A stretch of DNA of 58,426 nucleotides from a virus: positions 1 through 58,426 of IMG/VR virus record IMGVR_UViG_3300046012_001130; one strand, 5' to 3'. Shown here piece by piece: positions 10,543 to 47,950 of this stretch (position 1 is the first letter of the stretch; each line of letters begins with the position of its first letter). The position numbers and the translations under genes are program-made. The notes beneath the pieces were generated by a model, which worked only from the letters and a program-made list of their open reading frames with translations, was not told the DNA's origin and did no database searches.

Positions 10543-10619
10543 TGTGGGGTGGAGCAGTCCGGTAGCTCGCCAGGCTCATAACCTGGAGGTCGCCAGTTCA
10601 AATCTGGCCCCCGCAACCA
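10543..10619 (+). tRNA. tRNA-fMet (CAT), initiator type, CCA encoded
   Basis: Full cloverleaf: acceptor tgtgggg/ccccgca, D-stem gagc/gctc, anticodon stem ccagg/cctgg with loop ctcataa, T-arm gccag/ctggc with ttcaaat, discriminator A and encoded CCA. Initiator features: A11:U24 in the D-stem, the CUCAUAA loop, G30:C40 and G31:C39, and close overall similarity to bacterial tRNA-fMet. Unlike the standard C1xA72 mismatch it has a weak U1:A72 pair and a U3:G70 wobble; the third anticodon-stem pair is A29:U41. It is the only tRNA gene in the window. An elongator Met or Ile2 identity is less likely. Confidence 0.93.
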
Positions 10620-21000: not shown

Positions 21001-21425
21001 TCGCATCATTGTTCGGCGGCGTTGGCGGCGGCGGCGCGCCGATGCAGCTCCACTTCGCCGGCGGCGGTGTGATGACGTCGCGCGGTCCGCTCGCCTTGCG
21101 GCGCTATGCTGGCGGCGGGGTCGCCGATAGCCCTCAACTCGCCATGTTCGGCGAGGGTTCCGGGCCGGAAGCCTATGTGCCGCTGCCCGACGGGCGTTCG
21201 ATTCCGGTCAATATGCGTGGCCGTTCGGGGCCGGCTCAGCCCGGTCATACCTTCAATAGTTCGACAACGATCGTCATGAATGGCGGCGACGATCCGAAAC
21301 GCCAAGCCTCGCAGCTGCAGGCCGAGCTCGATCGGCGCGACGCAAAGCTCATGCAGAACGTGCAGCGGAATGTCGGGTCGATGCAATCAACCTGGAATCG
21401 CCGCTATGGCAAGGCCGCCGGCTGA
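18045..21425 (+). CDS. Tail tape measure protein with internal lysozyme-like domain
   Basis: A 1126-residue tail length ruler. The N-terminal third is helical (MQMMEFGHVARSVADSVAAGANPLRVLSQEGG) with hydrophobic Gly/Ala segments. A separate domain starts at NNPGN (about residue 684) with FATPADGYRAANNLLTSYVHRGYRTPAAIINRWAPRSDGNDP, a pattern known from virion-associated murein-degrading domains. The C-terminus (GGGVADSPQLAMFGEGSGPEAYVPLPDGRSIPV) is a classic tape-measure end. The domain may open peptidoglycan during DNA entry. Confidence 0.94.
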   Translation: MVSLDLIRKVTVQYQSTGAEKAAADYDKLTSAQDKAAASATRVEATTEKLSRTQLSVSGATERYVRAMDPAARAQAQVERGERLMAAARAQGLPITAAMNNALELARKRHEEYSKAAEANTRAIGLNRMQMMEFGHVARSVADSVAAGANPLRVLSQEGGRVAQIFTEGQGGVGGTFKALTSQVGRLAFSWVGLGLAAAGASAIGAGAALSWASAQSRLAASLNGVGRASGLNLAGLNSAARAAATAGGLSTPEARTLMAGFAGTGTISGSLGQSLAGSSRRFGDITGQSTADAGAMLAKLFADPSAGAKGLSKIFGDLDARTLELIQSEQARGEIVAAQKTLLDSFSASLKAATDNTWKLQDWAQNAKNAGANFLDRIGAGIAELVAKPPLAVQQTDIQAQIGVLSRERGQEGNVARLRAQYETNQQILDKEAQRAQADARQQAATRLGNQAADAVRAALPDFVRANSLADRIGLLRNAAGNSDAMHGLEGFDVNGALSRSLMQQRNLDPGRRAAQDDLLSIQNSQARTLAEKIAVDAEKARLQVLRDTGDALQAAAAAESARNEQIAAANRQAQDVVKQSGRDLQMAGMSPYQRGRQEIENRFADLREQLTASPTQLANAMRPQFSTDIDRLGDAATRAADALDRIANDNSPYGSVRAPGSISGGASGPWGSVRAPGSISGNNPGNLEVSSFSAGQPGFIGGGRFASFATPADGYRAANNLLTSYVHRGYRTPAAIINRWAPRSDGNDPAAYGASIAKIAGLDPNATLGFDAQSRSRLLFAMTKVEHGSSPYGESAIAGMLQGKAPVGLTTAGAVATAHSQSVAAYNIESIQQPFKQSNQALKDQNLLLDVQQKAFGKSKAELEGLLAAQKLYNDFTDAGVTVTAAMNEQIQAYGAGVTTLNRRQEQMQRQQDAMGAVRDVGSSFIDSVAQGLATRHRNVHQTIFGSAMHSVGTSLLSSGERALTGALFGGGRDGGNGVLGSLFASLFGGVGGGGAPMQLHFAGGGVMTSRGPLALRRYAGGGVADSPQLAMFGEGSGPEAYVPLPDGRSIPVNMRGRSGPAQPGHTFNSSTTIVMNGGDDPKRQASQLQAELDRRDAKLMQNVQRNVGSMQSTWNRRYGKAAG

Positions 21426-31412: not shown

Positions 31413-32252
31413 ATGAACGACACTGGCTTTCGGCGTGTAAATCCGACGCGGCCGCCGGCTGCTTATATTGGTGGTAAAAAAATGCTTGCCGCGCGGCTCG
31501 TCGAGCGCATCGCGGCGGTGCCCCATTCCTCCTACGCGGAACCGTTTGTCGGCATGGGCGGCGTCTTCCTGCGCCGCACCAGCGTGCCTTCCGTCGAAAT
31601 CATCAACGACATATCCGGCGACGTAGCGAATCTGTTTCGCGTGCTGCAGCGCCACTATGTTGCCTTTATGGACATGCTGCGGTTTCAATTGACGGGCCGC
31701 CGCGAATTCGAGCGGCTGCTGGCGCAGGATCCGAAAACGCTCACCGATCTCGAGCGGGCGGCCCGTTTCCTCTACGTGCAGCGTCTCGCCTATGGCGGCA
31801 AAGTGGCGGGGCGTAACTTCGGCGTCTCAACCGGGCTCCCGGGGCGCTTCGATGTGACGAAGCTCGGGCCGTTACTGGCTGATCTCAGCGAACGGCTCGC
31901 CGGCGTCATCATTGAGAACTTGCCCTATGGTGAGTTCCTCGCGCGCTATGATGTCAAGGGCGCGCTGTTCTATTGCGATCCGCCTTATTCCGGCAGCGAA
32001 GACGATTACGGAGCCGGTGTGTTCGGGCCACTCGATTTTGACAAGCTCGCCGCGATCCTCGGCGGCCTGAAGGGCGTCTTCTTGCTGTCGATCAACGCGA
32101 CGCCTGAAATGCGGAAGGTTTTCGCGCGATTCGACGTCGAGGAGGTCGACGTCGGCTATTCGATCGCCGGCGGCGAATGGAAGATATCGCGTGAATTGAT
32201 CGTCTCGACTGTCGGCCTCCCACGTGAAACCCGCGCGCCGACTTTTTTATAG
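31413..32252 (+). CDS. DNA adenine methylase (Dam/D12 class)
   Basis: A 279-residue N6-adenine methyltransferase. AYIGGKKMLAARLVERI (17-33) and EPFVGMGGVFLR (43-54) form the SAM site; catalytic DPPY is at 189-192. Length and motif order match D12-class enzymes. It may protect phage DNA from restriction or alter regulation. It is followed by two strong terminators, so it ends the rightward late unit. Confidence 0.95.
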   Translation: MNDTGFRRVNPTRPPAAYIGGKKMLAARLVERIAAVPHSSYAEPFVGMGGVFLRRTSVPSVEIINDISGDVANLFRVLQRHYVAFMDMLRFQLTGRREFERLLAQDPKTLTDLERAARFLYVQRLAYGGKVAGRNFGVSTGLPGRFDVTKLGPLLADLSERLAGVIIENLPYGEFLARYDVKGALFYCDPPYSGSEDDYGAGVFGPLDFDKLAAILGGLKGVFLLSINATPEMRKVFARFDVEEVDVGYSIAGGEWKISRELIVSTVGLPRETRAPTFL

Positions 32253-32319
32253 AGCTTCGCCGGCATCCCACAGATGCCGGCGGAGATGCCCTCCTTGGGC
32301 GTTTCCTCCCTAGACTTGG

Positions 32320-32351
32320 GCCCCTGGCGCTTCGGCGCTGGGGGCTCTTTT
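32320..32351 (+). terminator. Rho-independent terminator with UUCG loop
   Basis: An 11-bp stem (32320-32330 with 32335-32345) closed by a ttcg tetraloop and followed by tctttttgcgtttt. It ends transcription after the methylase. Confidence 0.88.
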
Positions 32352-32413
32352 TGCGTTTTAGGGCCGCCGCTAATATGCTCGCTCCGCCCCTTCGGGGGGA
32401 AGACCCCACAGAG

Positions 32414-32447
32414 CCCGTTGGAGAGCCCCCTTTCCAGCGGGTTTTTT
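32414..32447 (+). terminator. Second rho-independent terminator
   Basis: An 8-bp stem cccgttgg/ccagcggg (32414-32421 and 32434-32441) followed directly by six T. A tandem terminator 60 bp after the first, immediately upstream of the ligase gene. Confidence 0.85.
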
Positions 32448-32501
32448 ATGGTTGGAACTTCGCGCGCTTCCGCCCGGTTGAGTCGGACCGGAGGCGTTGC
32501 C

Positions 32502-33506
32502 GTGCGTGCCAGTAAACGAGTTTTCGAGCCGTCGAGGCGGAGCGCGCGTGTTCCCGAGCCGCCGCGGTGGATCGAGCCGCAGCTTTCCCGGCTTGTCGAG
32601 ACCATTCCCGCTGGCGACGGCTGGGCCCATGAGGTCAAATTCGACGGCTATCGCATGATGGCGCGTCTCTTCGGCGGCGAAGCGTTGCTGCTGACCCGCA
32701 GCGGTCTCGACTGGACCGCGAAATATCCTGGCATCGCCGCCGCGCTGCGCTCGCTGAAGCTGCGGCAGGCCTATCTCGATGGCGAGCTTTGCGCCATCAG
32801 GCCGGACGGCACGACCTCCTTCGCCGACATGCAGGCGGCTGCGGAAGGCAAGGCGCGCCTCGTCTATTTCGCCTTCGACCTGCTGCATCTCGACGGCCTC
32901 GACCTCATGCCGCTGCCGCTGCTCGAGCGGAAAGCCCTGCTCGAGCGATTGCTCGCCGGCGGGCCGGCCGCGATCCGCTACAGCTCGCACCACGTCGGCG
33001 ACGGCCCGAAGCTCTACGCCGCGGGAGCAGCCCAGGGCATTGAGGGGCTGCTGTCGAAGCAGATCGACAAGCCCTATGCGCCGGGCAATCGCGGGCTATG
33101 GGTGAAGACGAAGTTCCTCAACCGGCAGGAGTTCGTCATCGTTGGCTGGTCAGAGCCGGAGGGCTCGCGCGAGGCGCTGGGCTCGCTGCTGCTCGGCTAT
33201 TACGCGGACGACGGCCGGTTGCTCTACGCCGGCCGGGCCGGTACCGGCATGTCGAACGTCGTGCTGCGCGGGCTCATGCGGAAGCTGAAGCCGCTCGAGC
33301 AAAAGAAGATGACGGTCGACGAGCCGCCGCCGAAGACAAGCCATTTCGGCCGGCCGCTCGAGCTCGCGCGCGTCCATTGGGTGAAGCCGAAACTGGTCGC
33401 GGAAGTGACCTATCTGACCTGGACAACGGACGGTCTTCTGCGGCACGTCGTTTTCGAGGGGCTGCGCGACGACAAGCCGGCCCAACAGGTTCGGCGCCAG
33501 GGTTGA
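32502..33506 (+). CDS. ATP-dependent DNA ligase (LigD ligase-domain type)
   Basis: A 334-residue ligase joining nicks or ends using ATP. Motif I KFDGYR (46-51, Lys46 adenylated), YLDGELCAIR (91-100), FAFDLLHLDG (about 125-134), EGLLSKQ and WVKTKF follow in order, then an OB-fold domain. Size equals the isolated ligase domain of LigD; no polymerase or nuclease domain. The GTG at 32502 has ggagg upstream; earlier in-frame ATGs lie inside terminator hairpins and are rejected. No Ku gene is present in the window. Confidence 0.93.
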   Translation: MRASKRVFEPSRRSARVPEPPRWIEPQLSRLVETIPAGDGWAHEVKFDGYRMMARLFGGEALLLTRSGLDWTAKYPGIAAALRSLKLRQAYLDGELCAIRPDGTTSFADMQAAAEGKARLVYFAFDLLHLDGLDLMPLPLLERKALLERLLAGGPAAIRYSSHHVGDGPKLYAAGAAQGIEGLLSKQIDKPYAPGNRGLWVKTKFLNRQEFVIVGWSEPEGSREALGSLLLGYYADDGRLLYAGRAGTGMSNVVLRGLMRKLKPLEQKKMTVDEPPPKTSHFGRPLELARVHWVKPKLVAEVTYLTWTTDGLLRHVVFEGLRDDKPAQQVRRQG

Positions 33507-33819: not shown

Positions 33820-34098
33820 CTATAATTCAGATGGCGGGAGTTCGTTGCGCGGTCCTGTCGGCTCCGATCCGGCCTCAGGCAGCCCGAGCGCCCGCCGCCG
33901 CTGCCACTCGAAGGCCTTGCTAACCTCAACGACGCCTTCGCTCATCACGCTGAGATTGATCACGGCCTGATTCTCGGCACCGATGCCGTGGAAGACGAGC
34001 CAGACGTAGCCATCGGCGTCGGGCCCGCGGACCTCGATGTTTTCGAGGGCGGCGCGGGCGGCGGCGGGATCGGCGAGCGGGGACGAGTTGCTGTTCAT
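33820..34098 (-). CDS. Third gene of the LexA-boxed operon, unknown
   Basis: A 92-residue soluble protein: PAAARAALENIEVRGPDADGYVWLVFHGI then AVINLSVMSEGVVEVSKAFEWQRRRALGL. An alpha/beta pattern without known motif. It lies 15 nt after the preceding gene in the same direction and is probably co-transcribed and SOS-inducible. Confidence 0.62.
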   Translation of the reverse strand: MNSNSSPLADPAAARAALENIEVRGPDADGYVWLVFHGIGAENQAVINLSVMSEGVVEVSKAFEWQRRRALGLPEAGSEPTGPRNELPPSEL

Positions 34099-34113: not shown

Positions 34114-34401
34114 TCAGTGCTCAGCGGCCGTATGGATCAGGAAATCGCTGATGAGCGCATTCAGGGACTGGCTATCGTCAATCACGTGCTCATCGAGCAT
34201 CTCGAGGAAAATCTCAACACCAGGCGCCTCAGCGACCTCGCTAATCGCCATCGCGGCCATGAGCTCATCATCGAGGCCGTCTACCTGCGCGAGCAGGCGA
34301 GCGGCCGTTACAGCATTCAGCTGGTAACGCGTTCCCTCCTGCAGGTTGGCATTTTCCGCCATCGCCACCAAGCCGGCGCGCAATTCTTCCCGCGTATTCA
34401 T
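34114..34401 (-). CDS. Second gene of the LexA-boxed operon, unknown
   Basis: A 95-residue acidic, helical protein (NTREELRAGLVAMAENANLQEG; DELMAAMAISEVAEAPGVEIFLEMLDEHVIDD). The start overlaps the preceding stop (ATGA), indicating coupled translation. Small acidic helical proteins can act as antirepressors or DNA mimics, but nothing in the sequence proves this. Confidence 0.63.
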   Translation of the reverse strand: MNTREELRAGLVAMAENANLQEGTRYQLNAVTAARLLAQVDGLDDELMAAMAISEVAEAPGVEIFLEMLDEHVIDDSQSLNALISDFLIHTAAEH

Positions 34402-34775
34402 TTCTCGTCCTCCGGCGGCAGGCGTTCGGCGATCATATGCGTCCCGTTCCGAAAGGTGAGGCGCGATCGCAGACGCACCTTTACCGCGCTTTCGTAAGCG
34501 GCGCGACCGATCGACAAATTCACACTCCGGGCCAGGCATTCGGTGACGCGGTTGCCAGTGTGGTCCCATTCGTCGACGCGGTAGGATTGTTCGCGGCTCG
34601 AGGCGGCATGCTCGCTGTGGTAAAAGCGCAGCGCCTCAAGCAGCAGTGCCGCGCTGCGCTGGCCGACCCGAAACCCCTGCGGATGCGCGGCCATGCGCTG
34701 GAACAGGGTCTCCATCTCCTCGTCGGACCAGGTCACTCGGGTCTTGAAATCGAATGGCTCCCGACGCGTGCCCAT
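34398..34775 (-). CDS. First gene of the LexA-boxed operon, unknown
   Basis: A 125-residue protein; the start ATG has ggagg 5 bases upstream. It begins with a basic stretch, then SDEEMETLFQRMAAHPQGFRVGQRSAALLLEALRFYHSEHAA, helical and possibly DNA- or protein-binding. Its promoter is overlapped by a GTTC-N7-GTTC box, so expression should rise on SOS induction. No family is recognised. Confidence 0.65.
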   Translation of the reverse strand: MGTRREPFDFKTRVTWSDEEMETLFQRMAAHPQGFRVGQRSAALLLEALRFYHSEHAASSREQSYRVDEWDHTGNRVTECLARSVNLSIGRAAYESAVKVRLRSRLTFRNGTHMIAERLPPEDEK

Positions 34776-34796
34776 GCTTCCTCCGCCCGGCTGACT

Positions 34797-34830
34797 GTTC
34801 TCTTTATGTTCACGCCGCGGCGTTCGTCAA
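34797..34830 (-). promoter_or_regulatory. LexA-box promoter (SOS box GTTC-N7-GTTC)
   Basis: On the plus strand GTTC-tctttat-GTTC at 34797-34811 matches the direct-repeat LexA operator of alphaproteobacteria exactly. Read leftward, ttgacg (34830-34825) and cataaa (34808-34803, 16-bp spacer) form a plausible sigma-70 promoter whose -10 lies inside the LexA box, so LexA would block it. A further gaac half-site lies 10 bp upstream. The controlled gene starts at 34775. Confidence 0.78.
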
Positions 34831-34845
34831 GCAGGGCTCACCCCC

Positions 34846-35526
34846 TTACGAATCAGTCTTTTCGGGCTCGATCACGCTCGGATCGTCGTCGAAGGCGCCG
34901 GTCTTGTTGATTCGCGGCGAGACGCGCTGTTCGCGGAAACGCGCCTCCGGGGCAGGGTGCAGCTCCTCGGCCACCATGTCGCCGCGGAGCCAGCGGTCGA
35001 TCTCGGCCTCGGCGAGCACGGCTGGCATGCGGTCGTGATAGGGCTTCATCCACTCGCTGGCGGCGGTGACGATCATCGTCGCCGAGAGAATTTCCTCGCC
35101 GGTCTGCTTGTCGCGCCACGTCTCCCGCAGGCCGGCCAGGAAGAGGATCGGCGAGCCGTCGGCGGCCGTGAAGAGCCATGGCTGGCGGGCCTTCTTGTCG
35201 CCGGTCCACTCGTAGAAGCCCGACGCTGGCACGATGCAGCGGCGGCGCTTATAGGCCTCGCGAAACGTCGGCTTGGTGGCGACCGTTTCGACCATCGCGT
35301 TGAAGGTCGAATAGGAATCCTTCGGACCGTTCTTCGACCAGAAGGGAATGAGGCCCCAGCGCGCCTGGACGAGCTCGCGCTGTCCGGTGGCGTCGAGGCG
35401 GACGATATCGATCATCGTCGTCGGCGCGATATTGTAGCGCGGCCGCAGGTTCTGCGGCGCGCTCATGATGTTCAAAAAATCATGCACCTGCGCCCAGGTG
35501 TAGTTTTGCGTGAAGCGGCCGCACAT
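34846..35526 (-). CDS. SRAP (HMCES/YedK-like) abasic-site protein
   Basis: A 226-residue SOS-response-associated peptidase-family protein that forms a covalent thiazolidine link to abasic sites in single-stranded DNA. Key residues are present: Cys2 (MCGRF), Asn32 in RPRYNIAPT, Glu106 in SGFYEW and His164 in YHDRMP. The WGLIPFW segment is typical. It would protect replicating phage DNA from strand breaks or remove uracil-derived lesions. It lies between attP and the LexA-boxed operon, same strand. Confidence 0.95.
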   Translation of the reverse strand: MCGRFTQNYTWAQVHDFLNIMSAPQNLRPRYNIAPTTMIDIVRLDATGQRELVQARWGLIPFWSKNGPKDSYSTFNAMVETVATKPTFREAYKRRRCIVPASGFYEWTGDKKARQPWLFTAADGSPILFLAGLRETWRDKQTGEEILSATMIVTAASEWMKPYHDRMPAVLAEAEIDRWLRGDMVAEELHPAPEARFREQRVSPRINKTGAFDDDPSVIEPEKTDS

Positions 35527-35783: not shown

Positions 35784-35828
35784 CTGGGGGACTAGGGGTC
35801 GTGGGTTCGAATCCCGCCACTCCGACCA
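35784..35828 (+). other. attP core: 3' half of a tRNA gene (tRNA-Pro-like)
   Basis: ctggggg, then actag and gggtcg lead into a T-arm (gtggg ttcgaat cccgc), the acceptor end cactccg, and acca. This is the 3' half of a tRNA from the anticodon loop (ggg) onward, with no 5' half. It lies 150 bp from the end of the integrase gene. Tyrosine integrases commonly recombine in this tRNA segment, restoring the host gene. The host target is inferred as tRNA-Pro(GGG). Confidence 0.85.
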
Positions 35829-37627: not shown

Positions 37628-37968
37628 GACGCGTCCTCAACGGCTTCGCAGATTGGCTTGTTGGCGATTTCGAGCAGCACGTCGGCGTGGCAAACCGAGC
37701 CAAGCGCGCAAAAGCAGGCGAGGTTTTTGCCGCGCAGGCTTATGACCTCATCGGCTCCAAACTCCAGAAGGTGCGCTTGTCGGAAGATCGCATGGCGGAA
37801 AGCGGCAACGCACACCTCCCTCGATCCGTGGGCGCCGACCTTGAAGGGATTACCCCATTTGCTCGGCCGCGCGACATTGACCGCCGGCAGGCCGTTCGTC
37901 GCCAGCGAGAGGGCTTGCAGGCTGAAGCCCTTGCGGCGCGAGAGCTGGAGGCGGACGGGCGCTGTCAT
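37624..37968 (-). CDS. DUF4326 protein
   Basis: A 114-residue protein matching the DUF4326 pattern: VNVARPSKWGNPFKVG, a middle EVCVAAFRHAIF, and LRGKNLACFCALGSVCHADVLLEIAN. The Cys pair in LACFCALGSVCHAD may bind a metal. The family is common in phages and of unknown function. Coupled to both neighbours. Confidence 0.88.
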   Translation of the reverse strand: MTAPVRLQLSRRKGFSLQALSLATNGLPAVNVARPSKWGNPFKVGAHGSREVCVAAFRHAIFRQAHLLEFGADEVISLRGKNLACFCALGSVCHADVLLEIANKPICEAVEDAS

Positions 37969-39191
37969 GATCGCGCCTGCGGATAGGCATCATGCAGCCC
38001 GCCGTCGAGGAGCCGGCCGGCGGCGCGTTTGCCGACGCGGATCGATGTCGTGCCGTCGCTATGGTGCTCGTATCGATGCGCGCCGATGCCCGCTACGCCG
38101 GCGGCATCGCTGAAATTCAGGGGCGCGCCGGCCTTGCGGCCGTCGACAAGCACTTCGCCAAGGAGCTGCGCCAGCCAGGCGTCCGCGTCGATCCATTCGC
38201 CCCATTGCTTGAACAGGAACGGCACGCCGGCGGCGGCGCATTGATCGCGAATCGACCGGGCCCAATCCGGATGCATTGGCCGCGTCTTGCGGCCTGATTC
38301 GCCGCCGGCGACGATCCAGTCGATCGTGATCCGTTTTGCGCCGACCCATTCCGGGCAGCCGTGCGCATCTCGGGGGCCCTCGTCGCATTGATAAAATGCC
38401 TTCCCTTTTGGGCAGTCGCAGCGAGGTCCTTCGGCATCGCATTCCTGACATCCCCAAAACCTACCGTTTACCTCCGGGTGGTCATGATGGATGTCTGTTT
38501 CCGGCCACGGCAGCCAGGGCTCGAAATCGACGCCGCTCAATAGCGGCTCGGCGCTGACCCAGCGGATCGCCGCGGGCGTCGCCAGCATGTCCGGGACGCG
38601 CAGGTCGGCGGTCTTCTGATCTTCGGCAGAGATACCGAGCCAGACGTTCGGCAGCGGCCATGTCCGGATTTTGATGTCGTCCGGCAGATCGACGTCACCG
38701 ATCGATTCGACGGGCCATTTGTTGTCCGGTGCGACCTTCCGTTCGATCAGCAGATCTACGCACGAGCGGGCGATCCGGCGATCGCGCTCGCCGGTCATGT
38801 AAGCCCGCATCCTCGCGCTGCGCTTCGTCAGCACCTGGAAAATATGCTGCGGGCAGAGCGCCGTGATCGCGAAGATCTTGTCGAGCCATTCGTCCGGAAC
38901 CCATTCGCCGAAGAGATCGGTCATCGAGCAGGGAAAGATCATGCGCGGCTTTTTCCACCGCAGCGGCTGCAATAGCGCTTCCTCGTCGAGATAGATTTCG
39001 ACCTTGGCGCGATCCTGATGCGCGTAGCGGATCGGGTTGCCGAAGCGCGGTTGCAAGCGCTCGGCGTAGCAGTTGCGGCAGCCGTCACTCGCGTGCTCGC
39101 AAAAATGGCCGACCTTACCGGTCTCGCGGTTGCGGGCGCGGATCGGATTCCAGGTCGAATCCGTCCATTCGATTTTTGACCGGTCAGCCAT
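37965..39191 (-). CDS. DUF5131 (phage Gp37/Gp68 family) protein
   Basis: A 408-residue protein: ADRSKIEWTDSTWNPIRA, then CEHASDGCRNCYAERL (Cys cluster), KPRMIFPCSMTDLFGEWV, LTKRSARMRAYM, LPNVWLGISAEDQ, IRWVSAEPLLSGVD and WIVAGGESGRKTRPMHPDWARSIRDQC. The Cys spacing resembles an iron-sulfur site of the radical-SAM type, but activity is unproven. The middle contains an extra Cys-rich insert (WGCQECDAEGPRCDCPKG). The start chosen is MADRSKIEW at 39191. Confidence 0.9.
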   Translation of the reverse strand: MADRSKIEWTDSTWNPIRARNRETGKVGHFCEHASDGCRNCYAERLQPRFGNPIRYAHQDRAKVEIYLDEEALLQPLRWKKPRMIFPCSMTDLFGEWVPDEWLDKIFAITALCPQHIFQVLTKRSARMRAYMTGERDRRIARSCVDLLIERKVAPDNKWPVESIGDVDLPDDIKIRTWPLPNVWLGISAEDQKTADLRVPDMLATPAAIRWVSAEPLLSGVDFEPWLPWPETDIHHDHPEVNGRFWGCQECDAEGPRCDCPKGKAFYQCDEGPRDAHGCPEWVGAKRITIDWIVAGGESGRKTRPMHPDWARSIRDQCAAAGVPFLFKQWGEWIDADAWLAQLLGEVLVDGRKAGAPLNFSDAAGVAGIGAHRYEHHSDGTTSIRVGKRAAGRLLDGGLHDAYPQARS

Positions 39192-39435
39192 TCGGCGTCT
39201 CCGGCTTGCTAATTGGTACACGCGGCCTTTCATCAAGTGCGACGCCATGGCGGAACTGATCGGCGCGCAGGCCGGCGCGAATCGTATTCATGACGGACCC
39301 GCAAATCACGCGTGCTTCGAGCCGCGTCACTTCGCCTACGGGTTGGAAATCAAGAGTTCGACCGTCCGGCATGGTTATGACGATCTTGACCGGTGCGCCC
39401 TCGTCGTCGACGAGCGTAAAGATGCATTCCATCAT
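39184..39435 (-). CDS. Small protein, paralog of the gene at 39677-39904
   Basis: 83 residues: TLVDDEGAPVKIVITMPDGRTLDFQPVGEVTRLEARVICG and so on to DQFRHGVALDE. Strongly similar across its length to the protein encoded at 39677-39904, with the same ITMPDGR and ARVICG cores. The start overlaps the preceding stop as TAATG. Role unknown. Confidence 0.7.
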   Translation of the reverse strand: MMECIFTLVDDEGAPVKIVITMPDGRTLDFQPVGEVTRLEARVICGSVMNTIRAGLRADQFRHGVALDERPRVPISKPETPNG

Positions 39436-44542: not shown

Positions 44543-45175
44543 TCAGTCCCTACGGCGTCGCAAGCTCATCGTGACGATGCCCATGATCGTCACCGAATCG
44601 TCGAGTAGAATGGGCGCCCCTAATGCCGGGTCGAGCGTTCGCGCTATGAGGAACGGCGGCGCGTACTTGCGAATCAGCGTCTCCTCGCCCCCTCGATTGT
44701 CTGGACGGTTGAATACCACGATGTCGTCTTTGCGAGGCGCTCGCAGCCTCATGTCGCAACGAACAATATCCCCAGGAATATAGCCGTCGAGTTCGAGCGC
44801 CCGCGTCGTCAAAACGCGGTCGAAGACGTTCAGGTCGTCTTCTTTCGCTGGCCACTGCGCTGCGTTTTGTAGCGGCGCGACTTCCGGCTCCCGCAGTGCA
44901 CCAGGGCCGGAAGCCGTCGCTGACGGAACAGACCATCCCTGTTCCGAAGCGATCGGATTCTCAACCCCGAATGCCTGAGCAATCTTCTGTAAAGATCCGA
45001 GATCGGGCGCCGCCGTGCCATCCGCCCTTAGCCACCGATACACGGTGGACGGATTGATTTTGGCGCGGCGAGCAATCCCCGTGACTTTGAGGCCATTCGC
45101 GCGCATCAGTCCATTAACGAAGGTTTGCACACGTTCGCGGGTGCTATCGCGTTGAGAGGACACTGATTTTGCCAC
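44543..45175 (-). CDS. CI-type repressor, LexA/S24-like without the usual Ser
   Basis: About 210 residues from GTG 45175 (TTG at 45232 also possible). HTH near the start: NGLKVTGIARRAKINPSTVYRWLRADG. The C-terminal domain follows the LexA/S24 layout (ELDGYIPGDIVRCDM, DDIVVFNRPD, EETLIRKYAPPF), but the position of the nucleophile in the usual SM.P motif reads DGYIP, without Ser. It likely dimerises but cannot self-cleave. It is flanked by matching operator-like palindromes, leftward transcribed. Confidence 0.85.
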   Translation of the reverse strand: MAKSVSSQRDSTRERVQTFVNGLMRANGLKVTGIARRAKINPSTVYRWLRADGTAAPDLGSLQKIAQAFGVENPIASEQGWSVPSATASGPGALREPEVAPLQNAAQWPAKEDDLNVFDRVLTTRALELDGYIPGDIVRCDMRLRAPRKDDIVVFNRPDNRGGEETLIRKYAPPFLIARTLDPALGAPILLDDSVTIMGIVTMSLRRRRD

Positions 45176-46620: not shown

Positions 46621-46851
46621 ATGGAGGATCTGTGCTTTGCGTCGGTCGCCGGATCGATGGCCGGGGCGGTTATCGGCGCGCTCCTGGTGGCTCTTTGGTG
46701 GGGATGCCATCTGATCCTCGCCAGCGCCGCGCCGACAATCGATCAGCTCGAGGGGATCGTTCTCGTCTTTGCGGTGTTCGGGGCGATCGGCTTGCCGGCC
46801 TCGTTGGTGGTCGGCGACATCGTCGAAGGCCGGAAGAACCGATCATCCTGA
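46621..46851 (+). CDS. Small two-span membrane protein
   Basis: 76 residues with two hydrophobic helices (GSMAGAVIGALLVALWWGCHLILA and GIVLVFAVFGAIGLPASLVV). gcgagg precedes the ATG. An overlapping frame from 46587 is Arg-rich and rejected. Function unknown. Confidence 0.65.
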   Translation: MEDLCFASVAGSMAGAVIGALLVALWWGCHLILASAAPTIDQLEGIVLVFAVFGAIGLPASLVVGDIVEGRKNRSS

Positions 46852-46888
46852 AGGGTCTTTGCTCGTCTCGGAAGACGAGGGTTGCGGC

Positions 46889-47950
46889 ATGAAGTTTCTG
46901 CCGCCACAGCCGGGCGACGAAGGCGGCACGCTGGCACTTTATTCAGCGGCGCGCAGCGCGCTCGCCGCCGCTTATCGCGTCGACGAGGTCAAAGACATCC
47001 GCGACAAAGCCGTTGCGATGCAGGCCTACGCGCGGCAGGCGCAGGATGCGGCGCTGATCGAGATGGCGACGGAGATCCGGCTGCGGGCGGAGCGGCGGGC
47101 CGGGCAATTATTGCGCGAGATTGAGAAGGCATCAGGCGCGAAAGGAAATCCGGGAGGTCGTGGCGCAAAGATTGTGCGGTCAGCGGATGCAACCGCACAA
47201 AAACCTACACTCGCAGAACTTGGCATCAACAAGAATCAATCGGCCCGATGGCAGAAGCTCGCTGAGCTGGACGAAGCCGCGTTCGAACTAAAGGCGACAG
47301 CGGCGAAAAAGAACATGGTCGCGAGCGTCGACAAAGACACGCGCGAGGAAGTGGCGCGCGAAAAGCGCGAGCGGCGCGCTTCACGTGAAACCGAGCTCGG
47401 CAGCCGCATCGTCGCGCTGCCGCAGAGGCGATACGGCGTCATCCTCGCCGATCCCGAATGGCAATTCGATGTCTGGTCGCGCGAGACCGGCATGGATCGC
47501 GCCGCCGACAATCATTATCCGACGTCGTCGCTCGAAGCGATCCTGTCGCGCGACATAACCTCGATCGCGGCCGACGATTGCGTTTTGTTTCTGTGGTCGA
47601 CGGCGCCGATGCAGCCGCAGGCTTTTGCTGTGATGTCGGCGTGGGGCTTTATCTATCGCTCGCAAGTGATCTGGGTCAAAGACCGGCTCGGGACCGGCTA
47701 TTGGTTCCGCAACAAGCATGAGCTGCTGCTCGTCGGCACGCGCGGCAAGGTGCCGGCGCCAGCTATGGGCACGCAATGGCCGAGCGTCGTCGAGGCGCCG
47801 GTCGGCGCGCACAGCGCCAAGCCGGAGAAATTCCTGGAACTGATCGAAAGCTATTTTCCGACGCTGCCGAAAATCGAATTGAACCGCCGCGGACCGGCGC
47901 GGCCTGGCTGGGATGCGTGGGGTAATGAAGCGGAAGGGAGAGCGGCATGA
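46889..47950 (+). CDS. MT-A70 family adenine methyltransferase
   Basis: 353 residues. The N-terminal half is a helical DNA-interacting region (YSAARSALAAAYRVDEVKDIRDKAVAMQAYARQA) common to phage MT-A70 proteins. The catalytic motif is DPEW (188-191), a variant of DPPW, followed by RAADNHYPTSSLEAILSRD and FLWSTAPM, then GTRGKVPAP and HSAKPEKFLELIESYFP. Expected N6-adenine methylation of DNA. Confidence 0.92.
   Translation: MKFLPPQPGDEGGTLALYSAARSALAAAYRVDEVKDIRDKAVAMQAYARQAQDAALIEMATEIRLRAERRAGQLLREIEKASGAKGNPGGRGAKIVRSADATAQKPTLAELGINKNQSARWQKLAELDEAAFELKATAAKKNMVASVDKDTREEVAREKRERRASRETELGSRIVALPQRRYGVILADPEWQFDVWSRETGMDRAADNHYPTSSLEAILSRDITSIAADDCVLFLWSTAPMQPQAFAVMSAWGFIYRSQVIWVKDRLGTGYWFRNKHELLLVGTRGKVPAPAMGTQWPSVVEAPVGAHSAKPEKFLELIESYFPTLPKIELNRRGPARPGWDAWGNEAEGRAA

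Follow-up and report, generated by a model that had tools for sequence, protein, structure and literature searches.

The window, by which we mean the whole 58,426-nucleotide stretch of viral DNA that was analysed, carries three small co-directional genes, A, B and C, all with coding-like GC profiles by codon position. The preliminary description of this DNA had proposed a three-gene operon encoding proteins of 125, 95 and 92 residues; all three genes were recovered at these sizes, although the interval first given for the operon ends before C. Table 1 lists these genes together with the features discussed below. Moving outward from the operon, an SRAP (SOS response associated peptidase) gene is followed by attP and then by the integrase. 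The proximity of attP to the operon, also claimed earlier, holds up, with a core identical over 45 nt to the 3' part of tRNA-Pro(ggg), and because the core matches this gene, the phage very likely integrates into it.

Table 1. Coordinates and properties of the operon and related features in the window
Feature	Position	Strand	Remarks
ATP-dependent DNA ligase	32274..33506	+	PF01068 and PF04679; runs towards the operon
Gene C	33820..34098	-	92 aa; acidic, pI 4.6; orphan; begins 15 bp after B
Gene B	34114..34401	-	95 aa; acidic, pI 4.1; orphan; overlaps A by ATGA (4 bp)
Gene A	34398..34775	-	125 aa; helical N-terminal segment and LexA-associated 'EWD' domain (about aa 62-121)
LexA-type operator	34797..34811	.	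GTTCTCTTTATGTTC; exact GTTC-N7-GTTC; top-scoring on two matrices
Leftward promoter	34803..34830	-	TTGACG-N16-CATAAA; read from the sequence
SRAP gene	34846..35526	-	PF02586, E 5e-61 over aa 1-208
attP core	35784..35828	+	45 nt, an exact copy of the 3' part of tRNA-Pro(ggg) in related genomes
CI-like repressor	44543..45175	-	HTH matches; RALELDGYIPGD where LexA has GDSM

Inspection of the region upstream of gene A confirmed the earlier claim that an exact GTTC-N7-GTTC box covers the -10 element of a leftward promoter. On the minus strand, TTGACG occupies positions 34830-34825 and CATAAA positions 34808-34803, with a spacing of 16 bp, and the box overlays the latter. As had been described, the box lies upstream of a gene with a GGAGG preceding its ATG, but the distance from box to ATG is 21 bp and not 22 bp. 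A generic promoter scan did not list this promoter, because its -10 matches at only 4 of 6 positions. The assignment of the motif to alphaproteobacterial LexA is likewise borne out. The exact motif is present at the lexA locus in all 16 related genomes searched, which may not include that of the host, and it is therefore taken as the LexA operator of the group; it also equals the published Caulobacter consensus (PMC12700426). With this exact operator in its promoter, the operon has the hallmark of the alphaproteobacterial LexA regulon.

Taken alone, the bare GTTC-N7-GTTC motif is weak evidence, as the window contains four copies versus 1.55 expected. The boxes at 21146, 24410 and 35955, which have GC-rich spacers and low matrix scores, were judged to be chance occurrences. 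Two weight matrices were used to score the window, one built from host lexA boxes and the other from boxes of gene A homologues at other loci. The box of the operon ranks first in the window on both. With the second matrix it scores 25.1 of a maximum 27.0 bits, compared with 14.9 for the runner-up site, and none of 40 simulated Markov windows contains a site as good.

Searches of A, B and C against PHROG, Pfam and NCBIfam returned no match below E 0.05, defence-system models matched none of the three, and scans for close relatives of A and B in a viral collection and of A in a genome collection found nothing. B and C were each compared with phages, plasmids and 249 genomes, which gave only chance matches to unrelated frames or enzymes, never near a box; they are orphans without relatives. 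The comparison of the operon proteins with phages that had been suggested earlier gave no match beyond chance for B and C and a sole phage match for A, a hypothetical protein (gp07) of the isolate Ochrobactrum phage POI1126 that carries the A domain with 37.5% identity over 56 aa. This gene lies on the strand opposite to the late genes and is preceded by TTGACA and a one-mismatch box, GTTTCCTATTCGTTC. Unlike gene A, it encodes a stand-alone domain and sits between structural genes, and no other relation between POI1126 and the window phage was found.

Bacterial genomes proved a richer source. With gene A alone as query, 25 of 397 Hyphomicrobiales genomes yielded matches at E <= 0.01. Some of these are due to chance, and nearly all fall in the C-terminal part of A. 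The aligned region, about 60 aa long, follows the pattern F.VE.WD..G....ETLA......VARAAFEAAV..RP.....LR.G.RVI, and for convenience we coined the name 'EWD' domain for it in this analysis. Pfam, NCBIfam, PHROGs and PADLOC hold no fitting model, and a search of the accessible literature found no description of it. By these comparisons, this C-terminal half of A is an undescribed domain, found on what appear to be Hyphomicrobiales chromosomes, prophages and plasmid-like elements. A class-wide search, in which 16 candidates were scored per genome, gave only three matches, so the domain looks concentrated in Hyphomicrobiales.

Two of the 20 A-homologue loci fetched in the first round (L069 and L074) were set aside as chance matches. 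Each of the remaining 18 carries an exact GTTCN7GTTC, either at the gene itself or no more than about 300 bp upstream of it. A profile search added 36 further loci, nearly all from two families of genomes. In 22 of these loci an exact box lies no further than 600 bp upstream, mostly within 290 bp; the other 14 lack one. Against a background of ~3.4% per 600 bp, measured in these loci themselves, the 22 of 36 correspond to a binomial p of about 1e-23. Combined, 40 of 54 gene A homologues have a box, where kinship among many of the loci means that these counts cannot be treated as independent. As controls, 14 loci of chance matches obtained with B and C were examined; none has a box, and none occurs in their 43.6 kb. 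The boxes constitute independent evidence, since the homologues were found by protein sequence only. The A domain is linked to LexA boxes far above chance. The homologue's start codon often lies 0-23 nt past the box, and at locus L104 the homologue is preceded by 15 bases identical to the window box.

These observations bear on the simplest alternative, namely that the box is fortuitous and the operon lies outside LexA control. The number of bare motifs in the window would allow for such an accident. The matrix score, the position over the -10 and the recurrence of boxes at gene A homologues each argue against it, and we consider it highly improbable. LexA control of A-B-C, strongly supported by the matrix score together with this recurrence, is very likely. 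Genome G814 presents a separate case, with at least five A-domain loci (L107, L116, L119, L121 and L122) and no exact LexA box in any of them; these copies may belong to a lineage with other control.

The domain occurs in several architectures. In some homologues it stands alone as a protein of 60-70 aa. In A, L099, L101, L104, L106, L113, L115 and others it follows a helical segment of ~55 aa (RVTP.TA.LV..AL..YA..L), while elsewhere a zinc-ribbon-like segment adjoins it on one side or the other or, in L061, another small segment precedes it. Gene A combines the domain match, the architecture of helical segment plus domain and a LexA box at the gene, which together characterize the LexA-associated 'EWD' family; as A is itself a row of the EWD profile, its own profile score is no test of membership. 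An AlphaFold model of A reached a pLDDT of 51, too poor for a fold search.

Each locus was further considered with regard to neighbouring genes. In the window, the SRAP gene lies between the operon and attP, upstream of A and co-directional with it, and is not behind the operon's box. Its product matches PF02586 over the full length and has Cys2 and the conserved Asn, Glu and His, with MCGRF, FNA, FYEW and HDRMP read in the sequence; these residues presumably play the roles known from YedK. As for the ligase on the other side of the operon, its domain match leaves out about the first 100 residues of the open frame. An SRAP gene is found within 1.5 kb in 13 of 47 A-homologue loci versus 0 of 36 control loci (Fisher p 0.0004), and the window SRAP is up to 60% identical to the one beside the A-homologue L103. 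ATP-dependent ligase genes accompany A-homologues in three loci, L136, L137 and L063. In L136, the box is followed by the A-homologue, a DUF2188 protein and the ligase; in L137, the A-homologue comes directly after the box, and a small gene, SRAP, another small gene and the ligase come next. The window, with its ligase, A-B-C and SRAP, holds the same kit as these homologue loci. Judged from neighbouring open reading frames alone, L136, L138 and L139 look prophage-like, L134 (with a TrwC relaxase) and L142 (with ParB) look plasmid-like, and L133, L137 and L141 look chromosomal. A viral contig (L143/L125) also carries the domain.

Because the family often travels with SRAP and sometimes with an ATP-dependent ligase, the most likely role of A is in the tolerance or repair of damage. 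We infer this role from the neighbourhood, and nearness to repair genes is no proof of it. YedK, a relative of SRAP, is reported to form and reverse crosslinks to abasic sites (PMC9436759). SOS neighbourhoods of SRAP (YedK/HMCES) are known to include ATP-dependent ligase, Ku and two zinc-ribbon families (PMC3765255). The window resembles these neighbourhoods in having SRAP and an ATP-dependent ligase near small uncharacterised genes, and some A-homologues are joined to zinc-ribbon-like segments. It differs from them in that no Ku, ImuB, DinB or LexA gene was seen beside the operon and in that its SRAP gene is upstream of the box and not behind it. The A domain is not mentioned in the passages of PMC3765255 consulted.

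Comparable arrangements are present in other phages. Those of L006, L009 and L015 each have a LexA-boxed set of small genes adjoining SRAP. In the L009 phage, TTGACT and a box over CATTTT precede four small genes and then SRAP; in the L015 phage, TTGACT and a box over CATATT precede similar kinds of small genes and then SRAP. Both promoter layouts are like that of the window. The L009 phage shares with the window a Dam methyltransferase (59% identical) and SRAP (47%). In L006, the ligase, a boxed zinc-ribbon-like gene and SRAP follow the same order as in the window, and the boxed gene is unrelated to A. Small genes with a predicted LexA box beside SRAP are a recurrent feature of phages of this group, and the small genes themselves vary.

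Several further features of these phages were observed. A common LexA-boxed small-gene cassette ending in SRAP spans L009 4032-5666 and, in the phage of L015, L168 680-1425. The family of the first gene of this cassette (GD.RAAI.ALL...GYTRGW) is also found beside or joined to A-homologues. The L009 phage has a second, AT-rich LexA box before a zinc-ribbon-like gene (L152 1501-2524), and the end of that gene overlaps a CI-like repressor gene on the opposite strand.

A persistent slot with changing occupants, as in the window, L006, L009 and L015, is what would be expected if A-B-C were accessory 'moron' genes that served the host or the phage in an SOS-timed role other than repair, for example in superinfection or anti-defence during damage, and if their nearness to SRAP and ligase reflected a shared insertion site for cargo. 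The presence of the A domain on plasmid-like elements points the same way. However, the SRAP association extends to the chromosomal-looking loci L133, L137 and L141 and is absent from the controls, and the defence-system models gave no match, such that we regard this explanation as quite unlikely.

The preliminary description had interpreted the operon as a candidate antirepressor system, on the premise that the CI of this phage lacks its catalytic Ser. When CI is set by eye against 15 host LexA sequences, its RALELDGYIPGD falls opposite GDSMIEAGIxDGD of LexA, with SM replaced by AL, and the catalytic Ser has thus apparently been replaced by Ala. The motif therefore fits the premise, but CI has no S24 domain match in Pfam and its AlphaFold model, at a pLDDT of 35, is too poor for a fold search; comparison of CI with solved structures yielded nothing useful. 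With regard to the operon itself, a boxed small gene outside the immunity region, as in LexA-controlled phage antirepressor systems, is indeed present, ~10 kb from CI. Similarity to known antirepressor families was not found in PHROG, Pfam or NCBIfam at E 0.05.

For A, the antirepressor interpretation is not supported. Members of its family are also found in chromosomal and plasmid-like surroundings and repeatedly beside SRAP and ATP-dependent ligase, which argues for a general SOS effector and not a dedicated antirepressor. In Gifsy prophages, a dinI homologue comes first and the antirepressor gene second (PMC3121763), and by this precedent the antirepressor could be B or C, with A as an SOS passenger. 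Since B and C have no relatives, the idea that one of them could be an antirepressor is neither supported nor refuted. The operon resembles those of Gifsy, phage 186 (Tum) and N15 (AntC) (PMC3121763) in that the phage is temperate and has, away from its immunity region, small genes with a LexA box over their promoter, in that the repressor may be non-cleavable and in that a host-type SOS gene may hold the first place. It differs from them in that the A family is not confined to prophages and that B and C have no detected similarity to known antirepressors. An operon with A as a host-type SOS passenger in first place, and with B or C binding and inactivating a non-cleavable CI so that damage induces the prophage, would accommodate the LexA box, the small proteins, the location, the apparent loss of the catalytic Ser and the Gifsy gene order. 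Against it stand the occurrence of the A family outside prophages and beside repair genes, the lack of phage-family similarity or homologues for B and C, and the fact that the non-cleavability of CI comes from the by-eye motif, with neither an S24 match nor a usable model. On balance, we consider such an operon unlikely.

The most fitting interpretation of A is that of an SOS-induced damage-response factor and not of a dedicated antirepressor, and the DNA-damage response of the host, a soil-type alphaproteobacterium, probably turns the operon on. In the reading that we favour and hold to be reasonably probable, the window contains a LexA-repressed SOS operon of a temperate Hyphomicrobiales phage, situated near the prophage edge, with A acting in damage tolerance or repair. 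In a lysogen, host LexA bound to the box over the -10 would block transcription of A-B-C. Upon DNA damage, RecA-driven cleavage of LexA would open the promoter, and A, B and C would be produced together. A would then contribute to the tolerance or repair of damage, perhaps working at stalled forks or DNA breaks together with SRAP or RecA, and the outcome would be survival of the host or replication of the phage on damaged DNA. Weighing against this reading are the homologues that lack a box, the kinship among the homologue loci and the placement of SRAP, which is not downstream of the operon's box. Repression by LexA and release by damage are the steps that we infer strongly from the sequence, while any biochemical step ascribed to A is a guess. 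A more specific proposal, which we put forward tentatively and regard as rather doubtful, is that an undescribed, modular, LexA-controlled damage-response family is exchanged among Hyphomicrobiales phages, plasmids and chromosomes, with A as one of its phage-borne members, that the direct target of A is a damage intermediate, for instance SRAP-DNA crosslinks or RecA filaments, and that B or C couples the signal to prophage induction.

LexA-controlled phage operons and SRAP/ligase neighbourhoods are already known kinds of system. The LexA-linked domain family is the most valuable result of this analysis, as the A domain stands out as a clear candidate for an SOS effector family that has been overlooked in a large bacterial order. 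This case also shows that an antirepressor should not be assumed whenever a LexA box occurs in a phage whose repressor seems non-cleavable.

Elsewhere in the window, positions 10543-10619, among the structural genes, encode a tRNA-Met (anticodon cat). Two DNA methyltransferases are encoded, one Dam-like beside the ligase (31413-32252) and the other an MT-A70 protein in the replication region (46769-47950). A DUF5131 protein (E 1e-81) is encoded near the integrase at 37965-39248, and a relative of it is found upstream of the integrase in phage L012.
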